Shown here: piece after piece, positions 14,455 to 54,045 of the stretch
Layout of the letters: each line of letters opens with the position of its first letter
How positions within the stretch are numbered: the stretch's first letter is position 1
Source of the DNA: Bifidobacterium choladohabitans
GTDB taxonomy: Bacteria; Actinomycetota; Actinomycetes; Actinomycetales; Bifidobacteriaceae
Direction: 5' to 3'
Length of the DNA: 64,000 nt
Assembly: GCF_016102005.1 (NCBI RefSeq)
Contig: NZ_JACFPL010000002.1
Location: forward strand, 310,001 to 374,000
Notes under the pieces: model-generated
Databases searched by the model: none
The model's input: only the letters and a program-made list of their open reading frames with translations
What the model was told of the DNA's origin: nothing
Translations under genes and position numbers: made by a program

Positions 14455-14495
14455 CAGGCGACCGTCGGCATGCAGTCGGCGGTCGCCTGTATTTG
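14455..14495. terminator. bidirectional terminator between gldA and PfkB kinase
   Basis: CAGGCGACCG at 14455-14464 pairs perfectly with CGGTCGCCTG at 14480-14489 around a 15 nt loop. It lies between two convergent genes, and a T-rich stretch follows on the plus side. Confidence 0.75.
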
Positions 14496-14502
14496 GCTTG
14501 GT

Positions 14503-15480
14503 TTACATTGGCCCCTCCTGCAGGGAGGCAGCAGCCTTTCGTATGGCTTGTTCATCTGGGCATGTGGCTGGACCTGGCTGCGTAGTGGAAAGGGCCCCTG
14601 CGCAGTTGGCCAGTGTCAGCGCCTCTTCGATGGGCAGGCCCTGGAATATGCCCGCACAGAGGACGCCCGAGTGTGCATCGCCGGCACCGTTGGTGTCTAT
14701 GGCCTGGACCTGTGGGGTGGGAATGTACTTGATTTGCCTCGCATCCTTGGGCTGGCAGTACCAGGCACCACGGGCGCCGGCCCTGAGAACCACCGGACTG
14801 TCCAGTCTCAGCGAAAGCGAACGGCAGACGGATTCCAGCCCGGTTGTGTCGCCGGTTTCGGGTTGGCATCCCAGACGTTGCGCCAGGATTGGTCCCTCGC
14901 GTTCATTCAGCGACCAAATCGGATGCAGTCCGTTGACAGCATCAAGCACATCCAGTGCAATATCGGCCACCATGGGTCCCAGGTCGAAGAGCACAGGGAA
15001 TCCTTCGTCCTGGTGCAAGTGCGCGAATCCGACCAGGCTCCGGGTGTTGTCCTTGTGGCAGAAGGAATACCCGCTCAGGTAGACGACATCGCCGGGAACC
15101 AGGTCCATGCCTTCGTAGGTGCCCTCCGGTACGCGGGTCTCTGCGCCCCTTGCCGACACAAAGGTGCGTTCGCCCGAGGGCTCGATCATGGCTACCGAGT
15201 ATCCGGTATCACAGTCATCCAGCACAGGCCCCTGGGCGGGGACCCGCAGGGCTGCAAGGGCTCCACGGGCCATGTCCGCCATCGGACCTGTGCCGATCGC
15301 CCCCATATAGGCTATCGGCGCCCCCATCTGCCTGGCTGCGCGAATCACGTTGTACCCGCCGCCGACGTTTATGGCGCTTCGCCTGGCGAAAATATCCCCT
15401 CCGCGCTCCGGTAGATGGTCGATGTCCATGCTCAGGTCAACCACCACCTGACCGAGATGGAGGATCCTTGGCTCAGTCAT
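14503..15480 (-). CDS. PfkB-family carbohydrate/nucleoside kinase (YegV-like)
   Basis: 325 aa ribokinase-fold kinase. The substrate-side glycine motif GGGYNVIRAARQMG is near 40-53, and the catalytic base and anion hole lie in DTNGAGD (262-268). The ATG at 15480 is preferred over a GTG at 15486 because GAGGAG is 8 nt upstream of it. The start overlaps the permease stop by 8 nt, so the two are co-translated. With an ADP-ribosylglycohydrolase-family protein and a nucleobase/nucleoside permease next to it, phosphorylation of ribose or of an imported nucleoside is the likely job. Which one is not visible. Confidence 0.85.
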   Translation of the reverse strand: MTEPRILHLGQVVVDLSMDIDHLPERGGDIFARRSAINVGGGYNVIRAARQMGAPIAYMGAIGTGPMADMARGALAALRVPAQGPVLDDCDTGYSVAMIEPSGERTFVSARGAETRVPEGTYEGMDLVPGDVVYLSGYSFCHKDNTRSLVGFAHLHQDEGFPVLFDLGPMVADIALDVLDAVNGLHPIWSLNEREGPILAQRLGCQPETGDTTGLESVCRSLSLRLDSPVVLRAGARGAWYCQPKDARQIKYIPTPQVQAIDTNGAGDAHSGVLCAGIFQGLPIEEALTLANCAGALSTTQPGPATCPDEQAIRKAAASLQEGPM

Positions 15481-16939
15481 CGCCACTGCTCCTCACCGCC
15501 ATGGAATCCTTGGAGAGGACGTGCAGAATGGCGTAGAGAATTCCTCCCAGCAGGAGGGAAACCAGCCATGCCAGGCCGTTCCTGCCCAGGAAGCTGTCGG
15601 CCAGCGGTCCCGAGAACCAGACCTCGTCCTTGGAGACCTGGGCCGTCACGAACAGGAAGCCGACGACTATTCCGACCAGCCAGCTGATGATGGCTGGGAG
15701 GTTGACGCCGTGCCAGTACCAGTAGGGGGAGTCGGCTCGAAGGTTCAGAAGGCCGTCGGAATCGTAGCGCTTGCGGAAGATCATGTCTGACAGGAAGATG
15801 CCTGCCCAGGTGCTCAGCGGCACTGCCAAGAGGGAGATGAAGGTGACGAAGGGGCCGTAGAACCCGTCGGAACCCAGTGTGAAGTACAGGGCACCGCAGG
15901 TTGTCACCACCACGTCGACCACGACCGCGTAGACGCGGGGGATTCTGATGCCCAGGGTGATGGTGGTCAGGCCGGCAGAATATACGGAAAGGTTGTTGGA
16001 CATGAGCAGCCCGGCGAATGCGGCAATCAGATAGGGGATTGAGACCCAGGCGGGTAGGGCGCTTCGAACCGCGGCGACCGGATCGGCGGCGGAGGCAATG
16101 GTGGAGTTGCCAGCTGTAAGGACCGACCCCAGGCCGATGACGACCACCAGTGGAATGCCGGCGCCCGCCGCTGCAGTCAGGACCAGAGAGCCGGATTTCA
16201 CCGAGGTCTTCTGGTAGCGGGCCATGTCTGCGCCGGAGTTGACCCAGCCGATGCCCGTCCCCGCGGCTATGGTGCCGACACCGATCAGGAAGGCGCTGGC
16301 TGAGCCGGGGGCATTGCCGATGAAGGAGGACCAGTCGACGGTCGTGGCCAGATAGATGGCCACCAGGAGGGTGAGGGCGCCGAATATCCAGGTGGCCCAC
16401 TTCTGCACGGTGAGAATAAAGGCGTGACCGGCGGCCGAGACCACCACGGTCAGGGCCACGAAGACGGCGATGCAGACGAAGGTCAGGAAGGGGGAGCGCC
16501 TGGCATCGGCCGAGGTGCCGAAGATGATGGCGATCAGGGAGAGCAGCGCAAAGGCGCCGGTCATCGTGTTCACCGTCTCCCAGCCCAGTCTGGACAGCAG
16601 GGCCACCAGGGTGGGGCCCGCATTGCCTCTGACGCCGAAAATGGCCCTGGACAGGGTCAGCGTGGGGGCGCCGCCCCTTCTGCCGGCTATGGAGATGATG
16701 CCGACCAGGGCGAAGGATCCGAAGGCTCCGATGGTCGTGGCGAGCACGGCCTGCCAGAGGTTGAGGCCCTGGGCAATCAGGGTAGCTCCCAGAGGGATCC
16801 CCAGAATCGAGATGTTGGCGGCGAACCAGACCCAGAAGAGCTGGCCGGGCGACCCGTTCCTCTGGTCCTCGGGCACGGGCTCGATGCCCCTTTGCTCCAC
16901 CCTGGAGAGGATGGTGCCCTCTTTTGGCGCAGTTGACAT
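15473..16939 (-). CDS. NCS1-family purine/cytosine-type permease
   Basis: 488 aa inner-membrane transporter with about twelve hydrophobic segments. The family signature near the start is visible (FWVWFAANISILGIPLGATL), as is a TM6 segment with IGWVNSGADMARYQK. NCS1 proteins take up nucleobases, nucleosides, hydantoins or related vitamins with protons or sodium. The ATG at 16939 has AAAGGAG seven to eight nt upstream; a longer frame begins seven codons earlier without support. It is coupled to the PfkB kinase downstream and lies 102 nt after the ADP-ribosylglycohydrolase-like gene. Confidence 0.88.
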   Translation of the reverse strand: MSTAPKEGTILSRVEQRGIEPVPEDQRNGSPGQLFWVWFAANISILGIPLGATLIAQGLNLWQAVLATTIGAFGSFALVGIISIAGRRGGAPTLTLSRAIFGVRGNAGPTLVALLSRLGWETVNTMTGAFALLSLIAIIFGTSADARRSPFLTFVCIAVFVALTVVVSAAGHAFILTVQKWATWIFGALTLLVAIYLATTVDWSSFIGNAPGSASAFLIGVGTIAAGTGIGWVNSGADMARYQKTSVKSGSLVLTAAAGAGIPLVVVIGLGSVLTAGNSTIASAADPVAAVRSALPAWVSIPYLIAAFAGLLMSNNLSVYSAGLTTITLGIRIPRVYAVVVDVVVTTCGALYFTLGSDGFYGPFVTFISLLAVPLSTWAGIFLSDMIFRKRYDSDGLLNLRADSPYWYWHGVNLPAIISWLVGIVVGFLFVTAQVSKDEVWFSGPLADSFLGRNGLAWLVSLLLGGILYAILHVLSKDSMAVRSSGDD

Positions 16940-16969
16940 GGATTGTCTCCTTTGACTCAAGATGTACCG

Positions 16970-17025
16970 AATGTAGTGATGGATTGCCTGGACTCTACAT
17001 TTTTGTATTCCCGACTGATTCAGTC
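16970..17025. promoter_or_regulatory. inverted repeats in the gap before the NCS1 permease
   Basis: The 102 nt gap holds a 7 bp inverted repeat (AATGTAG at 16970-16976 with CTACATT at 16995-17001) and a 13 nt palindrome GACTGATTCAGTC at 17013-17025. The motif GTAG..ATGGATTGC at 16973-16987 recurs upstream of the glycohydrolase gene. These suggest a regulated internal promoter. Confidence 0.4.
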
Positions 17026-17041
17026 TTATCAGTTTTACGCT

Positions 17042-18040
17042 TTACTGCCTTAGGGCAATCAGGCCTCGAGCTGTATGTTGCAGGTCGAGGTGGGATACCG
17101 AAGCCACCTGGGAGCAGAGTGCAGGGTCGAAGACCTCAAGGCCGCTGCATGCGCCGGTCATTGCTCCGGTCATGGCAGCGATCGTGTCCGTATCGCCGCC
17201 AAGGTTGACTGCGGCCAACAAAGCCGATTGCGGATCGTCGGCAAACCTCCAGGCCAGGGCAAAGGCGGCTGCCACAGACTCATTGGCCTCGACCGAGGTA
17301 CCACAGTCCTCAATGAGGTGGTGTTCGAAGTCGGTCTCATCGCTGAATTCTTCGGACAACTGTATTGCCTGGCGGGCGCGTGCGGGAACCGATGCCTTAG
17401 GAGTCCAAGCCCCTGAGGTCTCCATGGCGGGTACCAAGCGCAGGGACTCTTTCAACGCCTGGCGAACGGTCATTCCTTCAAGTCCTAGACTGACTGTCGT
17501 GGCGATCAGCGCGGCACTTTGGAAGCCTGCGACTGTGTCGTGGGTGACCTGACAGGACTCGTAGATGCGATTGGCCAGTAGTCCGGCGTCCTCGGGCCTG
17601 TTGGCTATGCCAACCGGAGTGACTCGCATGGCGGCCCCATTGGTGGTGCCGGTCCTTCCCGTGGTCATGATGTCTGCGCCGCGGCGAACCTGTTCCAGGG
17701 CCAGCTTGGTGGAGGGCCCCAGCAAGTCCAGCGATCCGCGCGACTTCATGTCGTCCTCCCAGGACAGAAGGCGCTTGGCGAATTCCTTCGGATCAATGTG
17801 TCCCTTGCCCTCGATGATCAGTTCCGCCACGATCAGTGCCTGCTCGGTGTCGTCGGTCACAGACCCCGCAGGCATACCGGGGGCTATGGGCTGTTCCGCA
17901 ATGGCATCACGAAGGGTGTCAACCCTGCCGTAGACCTTATGGATGGCTGCTGGACTCATGCTCTGCGTGGGCATGCCCAGCGCGTCCCCTAAGGACAGCC
18001 CGGTAAGCGCGCCCAGTGCGCCCCTTTCAGTTCTGGTCAT
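17042..18040 (-). CDS. ADP-ribosylglycohydrolase-family protein (YegU-like)
   Basis: 332 aa alpha-helical, two-metal glycohydrolase-family protein. The conserved GDALGMP (18-24), the metal motif VTDDTEQ (61-67) and the second metal motif GGDTDT (281-286) are all intact, so it should bind Mg2+ or Mn2+. Family members cleave N-ribosyl bonds of ADP-ribosylated proteins or small molecules. No DraT/ADP-ribosyltransferase partner is nearby; instead a permease and a PfkB kinase follow on the same strand. A catabolic role on a ribosylated small molecule is therefore more likely than protein de-modification. Start ATG has GGAGG about 11 nt upstream. Confidence 0.88.
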   Translation of the reverse strand: MTRTERGALGALTGLSLGDALGMPTQSMSPAAIHKVYGRVDTLRDAIAEQPIAPGMPAGSVTDDTEQALIVAELIIEGKGHIDPKEFAKRLLSWEDDMKSRGSLDLLGPSTKLALEQVRRGADIMTTGRTGTTNGAAMRVTPVGIANRPEDAGLLANRIYESCQVTHDTVAGFQSAALIATTVSLGLEGMTVRQALKESLRLVPAMETSGAWTPKASVPARARQAIQLSEEFSDETDFEHHLIEDCGTSVEANESVAAAFALAWRFADDPQSALLAAVNLGGDTDTIAAMTGAMTGACSGLEVFDPALCSQVASVSHLDLQHTARGLIALRQ

Positions 18041-18352: not shown

Positions 18353-18383
18353 AAAAAAGAATCCCGAGGTGACCTCGGGATTC
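18353..18383 (-). terminator. Rho-independent terminator of tRNA-Ala
   Basis: Read on the minus strand, an 11 bp perfect stem (GAATCCCGAGG with CCTCGGGATTC) around a 3 nt loop is followed by six T residues. It lies just after the tRNA. Confidence 0.92.
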
Positions 18384-18389
18384 TACCTG

Positions 18390-18462
18390 TGGAGCTAGGG
18401 GGATTCGAACCCCCGACCTTCTCCATGCCATGGAGACGCGCTACCAGCTGCGCCATAGCCCC
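18390..18462 (-). tRNA. tRNA-Ala (anticodon GGC)
   Basis: Cloverleaf of 73 nt on the minus strand. The acceptor stem pairs GGGGCTA with TAGCTCC (one G-T), and the T arm is GGGGG-TTCGAAT-CCCCC. The anticodon stem TCTCC/GGAGA encloses ATGGCAT, giving GGC. CCA is not encoded. Confidence 0.95.
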
Positions 18463-51875: not shown

Positions 51876-51939
51876 TCCAGTGCAGAAAGACGCTAAGGTT
51901 GTGGCAGGGAATATACAGGAAACTGGAGGGAAGGGCTCT

Positions 51940-54045
51940 ATGACCGTCTTGGATGAACTGGTGGCCGGCGCCGTGGAGGATGCCAGGGGCCGGGTACAGA
52001 AGATTCCCTTGGAAAGCCTCAAGCAACAGGTCAGGAGTATGAAGCGCAAACCCCTGGATGCCGGCCGACTGCTCAGGGAGAGCGTCGGCATTCCGATCAT
52101 CGCGGAAATCAAGCGCGCCTCGCCCTCCAAGGGGTATCTTGCCGACATCAAAAATCCCGCCGCACTGGCCCGGCAGTATGCCAACGGGGGTGCCTCTGCC
52201 ATATCGGTGCTGACCGAGGGCAGACGCTTCCTGGGGTCCTTGGAGGATCTGCGGCAGGTCAGGCAGGCCGTGGGCATTCCCGTGCTCAACAAGAATTTCA
52301 TTGTCTCCGACTACCAGGTCTGGGAGTCCAGGGCCAATGGGGCCGATATGATCCTGTTGATTGTGGCGGCCTTGGATGACACCCGTCTCAAGCACCTGCT
52401 CGACCTGGCCGGGAGACTGGGCATGACCGCTCTGGTCGAGACGCATGATCGACAGGAGATCGAGCGGGCCATTGCGGCCGGCGCCAGGGTGATCGGCATC
52501 AACGCCCGGAATCTGAAGGACCTGAGCGTCGACATCGACCAGTATGCCCGGCTGGCCTCCAACCTGCCCAAGGACGTGGTCAAGGTGGCCGAGTCCGGAG
52601 TGTTCGGCACGGTCGAGCTGGAGCGGTACGCCCGTGCCGGGGCCGATGCGGTCCTGATAGGAGAAGGACTGGTCACCTCCCAGGACCGGGAGGGCACCGT
52701 CCGCTTGCTGGTTCAGGCCGGTCACCGCTTCAAGGCCGCCGAGGCCAGGCCCCTGTCGACCCATGACGGGCCCTATTTCGGCCCATATGGCGGACGTTTC
52801 GTACCTGAGGCCCTGGTTGGTGCCCTTGACGAGCTGGAGCGCGTCTACAAGGAGGCCAAGGCCGATCCGGCCTTCCGCGAGGAGTTGAACAGGCTCAACC
52901 GGGTCTATGTGGGGCGTCCCTCGGCTCTGACGCCGGCTCCCAGCTTCGCCAAGCTGATCAGCGATCGGGTCGGCGGCCAGGTCAGGGTATTCCTGAAGAG
53001 GGAGGATCTGAACCACACGGGCGCCCACAAGATCAACAACGCCCTGGGCCAAGGGCTCCTGGTCAAGCGTATGGGCAAGACACGCGTCATCGCGGAGACC
53101 GGAGCCGGTCAGCACGGCGTGGCCACGGCTACGGTCTGCGCCCTCCTGGGCTTCAAGTGCCGGATCTACATGGGCCAGATCGACGCCCGCAGGCAGGCCC
53201 TGAACGTGGCCAGGATGCGGATGCTGGGGGCCGAAGTAGTGGAGGTGACCACCGGGACCAGAATTCTCAAGGACGCCATCAACGAGGCCCTGCGCGACTG
53301 GGTGACCAACGTGGAGTCCACCCACTATCTGCTGGGCACGGTGGCCGGCCCCCATCCCTTCCCGACCATAGTCAGGGACTTTCAGAAGATCATCGGCGAA
53401 GAGGCCTCCGCACAGCTTTCCGCATATGGCATCGACCATCCTGACGGGGTTGTGGCCTGCGTGGGCGGAGGCTCCAACGCCATCGGCATCATGAACACCT
53501 TCCTGGACGATCCCCGGGTCTCCCTCTACGCATACGAGGCCGGTGGAGACGGCCCCAGCTCGGGCAAGCACGCCATCCGCCTGTCGCCAGACACAGGACA
53601 GGTCGGCGTCTTCCAGGGGACCAAGTCCTATCTGCTGGAGGACGACCAGGGCCAGACCATGGATACCTACTCCATCTCCGCCGGCCTGGATTACGCCTCG
53701 GTGGGGCCCGAGCACGCCTGGTTGCACGACATGGGCCGGGTCAAGTACGACTATGCGACCGACAAGGAGGCCATGCAGGCTTTCAGCGACCTCTGCCGGA
53801 CCGAGGGCATCATCCCTGCCCTGGAGTCCTCGCACGCCTTGGCCGGAGCCAGCAAGGCGGCCACGGACCTTCTGCGCAAGGGAATCAGGAATCCTGTCAT
53901 TCTGATCAACATCTCGGGCAGGGGCGACAAGGATGTGGCCACGGCGGGTAGATGGTTCGGCTACCTGTCCGAGCAGGAGGCCAGCGCTCTGGAAGCCCAG
54001 GCCGGGCACGGCAAGAGCGATCAAGCAGAAGAGGAGGCCCGTTGA
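51940..54045 (+). CDS. trpCB: indole-3-glycerol-phosphate synthase / tryptophan synthase beta fusion
   Basis: 701 aa fused protein. Residues 1 to about 265 are TrpC, with [10 protein letters not shown] (56-65) and the phosphate-binding VAESGVFG motif. Residues from about 270 are complete TrpB, starting [14 protein letters not shown], with the PLP lysine K364 in [14 protein letters not shown] and the GGGSNAIG loop. The two catalytic steps flanking indole release are thus on one chain. The ATG at 51940 has GGAGGGAAGGG upstream and gives a normal TrpC start; a GTG at 51880 would add 20 residues. trpA overlaps by 1 nt. Confidence 0.93.

Follow-up and report, generated by a model that had tools for sequence, protein, structure and literature searches.

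A candidate operon for N-riboside import, phosphorylation and cleavage in Bifidobacterium choladohabitans

What might an enzyme of a family usually annotated for removing ADP-ribose from proteins be doing in an operon with a permease and a sugar kinase? The question is raised by three minus-strand genes at positions 14503 to 18040 of a 64,000-nucleotide stretch of the Bifidobacterium choladohabitans genome (contig NZ_JACFPL010000002.1, positions 310,001 to 374,000; the whole stretch is called the window below), which encode an ADP-ribosylglycohydrolase-family protein, an NCS1 permease and a PfkB-family kinase. It is highly likely that the operon combines small-molecule import, glycoside cleavage and phosphorylation, in some order. 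With a probability of about one half, we favor the more specific reading that an unusual N-riboside would be imported, phosphorylated at its 5′ position and then cleaved to ribose-5-phosphate, by analogy with the logic of PsuK and PsuG. An earlier note on this DNA had proposed the import, cleavage and phosphorylation of a ribosylated small molecule, and this is still the best reading of the gene set.

The operon and its conservation

The features of the locus, in window positions, are:
14455..14489, no strand: stem-loop terminator of 15 bp in the gap between the kinase gene and the glycerol dehydrogenase gene, which converge
14503..15480, minus strand: YegV-type PfkB-family kinase, 325 amino acids, overlapping the permease gene by 8 nucleotides; PF00294, 115 bits
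14671..14697, minus strand: kinase catalytic motif DTNGAGDAH, read from the sequence, catalytic Asp invariant
15473..16939, minus strand: NCS1-family permease, 488 amino acids, ATG at 16939; PF02133, 214 bits
17042..18040, minus strand: ADP-ribosylglycohydrolase-family hydrolase, 332 amino acids, first gene of the operon; PF03747, 218 bits
17183..17200, minus strand: second metal motif GGDTDT, hydrolase residues 281-286 (sequence and 25-sequence alignment)
17846..17857, minus strand: first metal motif TDDT, hydrolase residues 62-65, read from the sequence and invariant in the 25-sequence alignment
18358..18384, minus strand: terminator of tRNA-Ala (18389-18462), which sets this upstream gene apart from the operon

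The family assignments are well above the Pfam cut-offs: ADP_ribosyl_GH scores 218 bits against 26.2 for the hydrolase (17042-18040), Transp_cyt_pur 214 against 23.5 for the permease (open frame 15473-16960) and PfkB 115 against 25.8 for the kinase (open frame 14503-15486). The best start of the permease is ATG 16939, which has the ribosome site AAAGGAGA; an alternative in the same frame is TTG 16960. The hydrolase and permease genes are 102 nucleotides apart, and since the permease ends with TGA at 15473 and the kinase begins at ATG 15480, preceded by GAGGAG, the overlap is exactly 8 nucleotides. The arrangement on one strand, the intact metal motifs and this overlap, all described in the earlier note, were confirmed. 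Because a strong terminator hairpin lies just past the kinase end and the upstream tRNA-Ala gene has a terminator of its own, the triad looks like one transcription unit. No GntR regulator is found among the genes flanking the triad, and a search for Rfam riboswitches around the operon, in the window and in eight relatives, matched only tRNAs. The genome, of 2.08 Mb, belongs to the Bifidobacteriaceae; B. asteroides and B. mizhiense are among its closest named relatives. Its single PF03747 gene is the operon hydrolase, and its single PF02133 gene is the operon permease.

A genome scan with the hydrolase alignment returned more than 561 relatives, and neighbourhoods were counted in the best 80, taken from named genomes. 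With 43 of the 80 loci from Pseudomonas and all of them best matches by selection, the fractions show breadth, not frequencies. The kinase gene adjoins the hydrolase gene in 75 of these loci and is fused to it in the other five; an NCS1 permease is adjacent in 63, and a GntR/UTRA regulator in 52 (a GntR gene also occurs in relative L046). The triad is a real conserved module, coupled across phyla, whose recurrence is not due to chance. Rare co-occurrence, which the earlier note had set against its proposal of a functional unit, was not seen. That note had also presented the NCS1 permease as a substitution for a transporter of the major facilitator superfamily (MFS); the importer is indeed of the NCS1 family, but this is no oddity, NCS1 being the common importer of the hydrolase clade. 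Full-length NCS1 matches score 455-763 with a profile made for this analysis, in which one row had the wrong frame; the residue comparisons given below use correct frames.

Within the genus, 12 other species have the block in synteny, beside the glycerol dehydrogenase gene; the 2-hydroxyacid dehydrogenase gene, in loci that proved to have it, lies near the other flank. In G015 the triad occupies a different site and is immediately preceded by a GntR gene, and in G022 and G026 the order is hydrolase-kinase-NCS1 instead of the hydrolase-NCS1-kinase found elsewhere; the persistence of the unit through changes of gene order between lineages counts for functional coupling. In G008 only remnants of the hydrolase and kinase are left and the permease has been lost. 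A decayed set of this kind, with hydrolase and kinase fragments and no permease, was noted in a sister species (L051:7843-8796). In a single case, a metagenome-assembled genome of the Actinomycetaceae, a DJ-1/PfpI-family gene lies between hydrolase and kinase (L095:6533-7192). The gene set is patchy, since only 7 of 396 Actinomycetota genomes, evenly drawn, have a hydrolase match at E <= 1e-40. A plasmid search found chromid or plasmid copies in Burkholderiales, rhizobia and Paracoccus and no staphylococcal match.

The importer is the variable member of the set. A PotD-type ATP-binding cassette (ABC) transporter replaces NCS1 in Rhizobium, Mesorhizobium, Paracoccus and Burkholderia and lies beside the Halomonas locus, and an MFS carrier replaces it in Schaalia and in a contig labelled Sanguibacter; in some hydrolase loci no importer was identified. 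NCS1 users and ABC users are interleaved in the hydrolase tree, in which Salinicola L087 and L089 were labelled ABC solely from a similar divergent gene arrangement. The retention of hydrolase and kinase while the importer varies points to a small imported substrate. In Schaalia and Actinomyces the two enzymes are joined in single proteins of 675-757 amino acids, that of Schaalia vaccimaxillae having 675. The hydrolase-kinase fusions are:
L075:7962-9986
L077:7881-10061
L081:7872-10142
L090:7878-10079
L125:7980-10073

The contig labelled Sanguibacter has a frame of 987 amino acids (L120:90-3050) made up of a hydrolase, a degenerate-looking kinase and a partial second hydrolase, followed by a separate kinase gene and an MFS gene.

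Pocket residues of the three proteins

The kinase belongs to a recognizable type. ERTF and SGY-like motifs are present in 24/24 and GAGDxH in 23/24 of the sequences compared (the window kinase and 23 relatives); YegV of E. coli has all three, and they are absent from E. coli RbsK, PsuK and FruK and from three further PfkB kinases encoded in the window genome. Its AlphaFold2 model has a mean confidence score (predicted local distance difference test, pLDDT) of 92, and it scores 78 bits against a ribokinase equivalog cut-off of 300. Ribokinase contacts ribose through Asn14, Asp16, Gly42, Lys43, Asn46, Glu143 and Asp255 (PMC9604405). The kinase clade retains Asp16, Asn46 and Asp255; the Asn14 equivalent is altered in 24/24, mostly to hydrophobic residues, the Lys43 position is an alignment gap in 24/24, and the Glu143 equivalent is altered in 22/24, in a less certain part of the alignment. 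According to the same set of papers, losing only the Asn14 equivalent did not greatly lower the activity of the Arabidopsis enzyme on ribose, so the argument that this is not a ribokinase needs all three changed contacts together. Two of the three also differ in pseudouridine kinases, whose substrate is an intact C-riboside: the Arabidopsis enzyme has Ile in place of Asn14 (PMC9247573) and E. coli PsuK has Val at the Lys43 position (PMC9247573; our alignment).

The window genome has two canonical ribokinases (276 and 248 bits with the ribokinase model), each of which keeps every listed contact residue, and five nucleoside hydrolases of the IU type. Were free ribose the product, the operon would not need a non-canonical kinase of its own. 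Together, the altered kinase pocket, the resident ribokinases and the nucleoside hydrolases make free ribose and ordinary nucleosides unlikely targets of the operon, so that neither the phosphorylation of ribose, which the earlier note had allowed for, nor an ordinary nucleoside as the substrate is supported. The same genome encodes a protein of 630 amino acids in which a LacI-type regulator is fused to a canonical ribokinase (L162:505-2394; G000:C3).

In NCS1 structures, the base is sandwiched by a Trp of transmembrane helix 3 and a Phe or Trp of transmembrane helix 6, the latter described as conserved family-wide (PMC9379551, PMC4195764). The helix 3 stacking Trp is retained in 22/22 clade permeases. 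By comparison with a small set (CodB, AllW and Mhp1), the helix 6 aromatic residue (Phe204 of CodB, Trp220 of Mhp1) has given way to Gly in 22/22, a Trp following three residues later, and the position of Mhp1 Asn318 is also Gly. The loss of the helix 6 aromatic residue suggests a changed permease pocket; a flat ring is probably still part of the ligand, held in a reshaped site.

In the hydrolase, D63, D64, D283 and D285 are invariant in the alignment of 25 sequences, as are T284 and T286. The AlphaFold2 model has a pLDDT of 96, and its closest PDB folds by Foldseek are MJ1187, DraG and ARH3; both acidic metal motifs and the predicted all-helical ARH fold are thus present. MJ1187, the nearest match, carries the PDB label hypothetical protein/ribosylglycohydrolase. 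ARH enzymes bind ribose bearing a 5′-phosphoester, a group that a 5′-phosphoriboside would mimic, which makes such a compound a reasonable substrate for the window hydrolase.

Reaction order and substrate

In the pathway that we favor, the NCS1 permease would import an N-glycoside through cation symport, most probably an N-riboside that carries a heteroaromatic base and is not one of the ordinary nucleosides. The YegV-type kinase would phosphorylate the sugar 5′-hydroxyl, probably on the intact riboside, and the hydrolase, with its two metal ions, would then hydrolyze the N-glycosidic bond of the 5′-phosphorylated compound to release the base and ribose-5-phosphate, the latter entering central metabolism. 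That a small molecule is imported, that it is a riboside and that the kinase acts before the hydrolase is what we infer. Several observations weigh against this pathway. The top Foldseek matches of the kinase model are ribokinases, not nucleoside kinases, and the pocket changes count only against a canonical ribokinase, so that another free sugar fits them equally well. Neither a fusion nor an operon is informative on the order of the steps, and most lineages have no linked gene that would deal with the released base.

Alternatively, as in the route of the earlier note, the hydrolase could act first after import, and the kinase would then phosphorylate the freed ribose, as ribokinases do, or another freed sugar; this we consider possible but unlikely. 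Nucleoside hydrolase followed by ribokinase is a standard pattern, the gene content would be identical and the kinase fold is nearest to ribokinases; however, the kinase lacks the ribokinase pocket residues, falls far short of the equivalog cut-off and would duplicate two canonical ribokinases, objections that a sugar other than ribose would evade. Removal of ADP-ribose from protein, in the manner of DraG, ARH or Tri1, is the least probable of the alternatives. The hydrolase has the same fold and metal motifs, but it is linked to an importer and a kinase, not to a transferase, and it scores far under the equivalog cut-offs of DraG (82.5 vs 337 bits) and Tri1 (68 vs 490 bits). No match to DarT (PF14487) was found in the window genome, nor to ART (PF01129), although the ART search was silent in control genomes too and is a weak negative. 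The earlier note's view that the setting is not one of protein de-ADP-ribosylation is supported.

A role in ADP-glucose and glycogen metabolism, which has been put forward for the GgaR-controlled yegTUV genes of E. coli, appears improbable as well. A charged nucleotide sugar would not be a usual cargo of NCS1 carriers, and the hydrolase is just 31% identical to YegU, even though the YegV motifs are common to the window kinase. In the study of GgaR (YegW) as the repressor of yegTUV, ADP-glucose was tested as its effector, but the enzyme functions were left undetermined (PMC10819704). Another proposal is that the substrate is nicotinamide riboside or a related pyridine riboside, yielding a pyridine vitamin and ribose phosphate, which we regard as doubtful. 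The yeast NCS1 member Nrt1 carries nicotinamide riboside, PotD-type importers bind cations, the window genome has a nicotinamidase-like gene, and an isochorismatase-family gene (nicotinamidase superfamily) is added to the set in some Bifidobacterium/Gardnerella loci, listed below. Against this, such a gene is linked in only 4 of the 80 survey loci, the linked proteins score 28.8 bits against a nicotinamidase cut-off of 174 and have weak nearest PDB matches, and no riboswitch was found nearby. The isochorismatase-family cysteine hydrolases beside the set are:
L044:11600-12163
L054:7-540
L071:11670-12242
L080:11778-12341

Carried beyond this operon, the pathway of riboside phosphorylation before cleavage leads to a broader and more tentative proposal: that a widespread metabolic branch of the ADP-ribosylglycohydrolase fold, found in Actinomycetota, Pseudomonadota and, by gene annotation, staphylococcal cassettes, may cleave 5′-phosphorylated small N-ribosides together with a YegV-type riboside kinase and interchangeable importers. 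If so, it would constitute a catabolic pathway for an N-riboside beyond known nucleoside salvage. A hydrolase clade of this size that goes with a sugar kinase and an importer is better read as acting in the catabolism of small molecules. Many annotations would be corrected by this reading, which also offers a way to find out what yegTUV and the staphylococcal cassette genes do. The natural hydrolase-kinase fusions and the three-gene operon make the module readily testable.

Parallels in other gene sets

The hydrolase-NCS1-kinase set is already on record from staphylococcal cassettes. The gene lists of the SCCmec J3 region and of vSe1 in S. epidermidis RP62a include an ADP-ribosylglycohydrolase, a cytosine/purine-type permease and a ribokinase, SERP2218-2216 (PMC3637587, PMC3321955, PMC3900703). 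Compared through the gene tables of these papers, the three families and their order are those of the window, and the listed coordinates give a permease-kinase overlap of 4 nucleotides (PMC3637587, PMC3900703). The set lies on mobile cassettes, the kinase is truncated in two reports, and the genes are annotated without an assigned function. Our literature search, mostly outside subscription journals, found no paper assigning a function to the set; its matches were the E. coli GgaR paper and the SCCmec gene lists.

The E. coli yegTUV-yegW genes likewise combine an importer, a hydrolase and a kinase under a GntR regulator, and the earlier note had called the window set yegTUV-like. The likeness stands for the kinase, through the shared ERTF, SGY and GAGDxH motifs (28% identity to YegV); it is weak for the hydrolase, YegU lying outside the window clade in the tree, though on a long branch; and it fails for the transporter, YegT being an MFS nucleoside-type protein without kinship to the PF02133 permease. 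We regard yegTUV as a distant parallel. In E. coli K-12, yegTUVW was located near thiM-thiD (L139:822-7302). The psuT-psuK-psuG system is similar in logic only, having an importer, a PfkB kinase that acts on the intact glycoside and then a glycosidase that acts on the phosphorylated compound; PsuG is not an ADP-ribosylglycohydrolase, and the window kinase is 13% identical to PsuK.

In other Bifidobacterium genomes (L047-L053), an ADP-ribosylglycohydrolase adjoins a PfkB kinase of a different type, with hydrolases 30-36% and kinases about 19% identical to those of the window. An MFS or sugar-type ABC importer, not NCS1, is next door in the two loci examined, and a LacI regulator is present in L048 and L050. 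This pairing shows that hydrolase-kinase coupling extends past the window clade.

Elsewhere in the window, at 51880-54045, an indole-3-glycerol phosphate synthase is fused to a pyridoxal phosphate-dependent (TrpB-like) protein in one frame of 721 amino acids.

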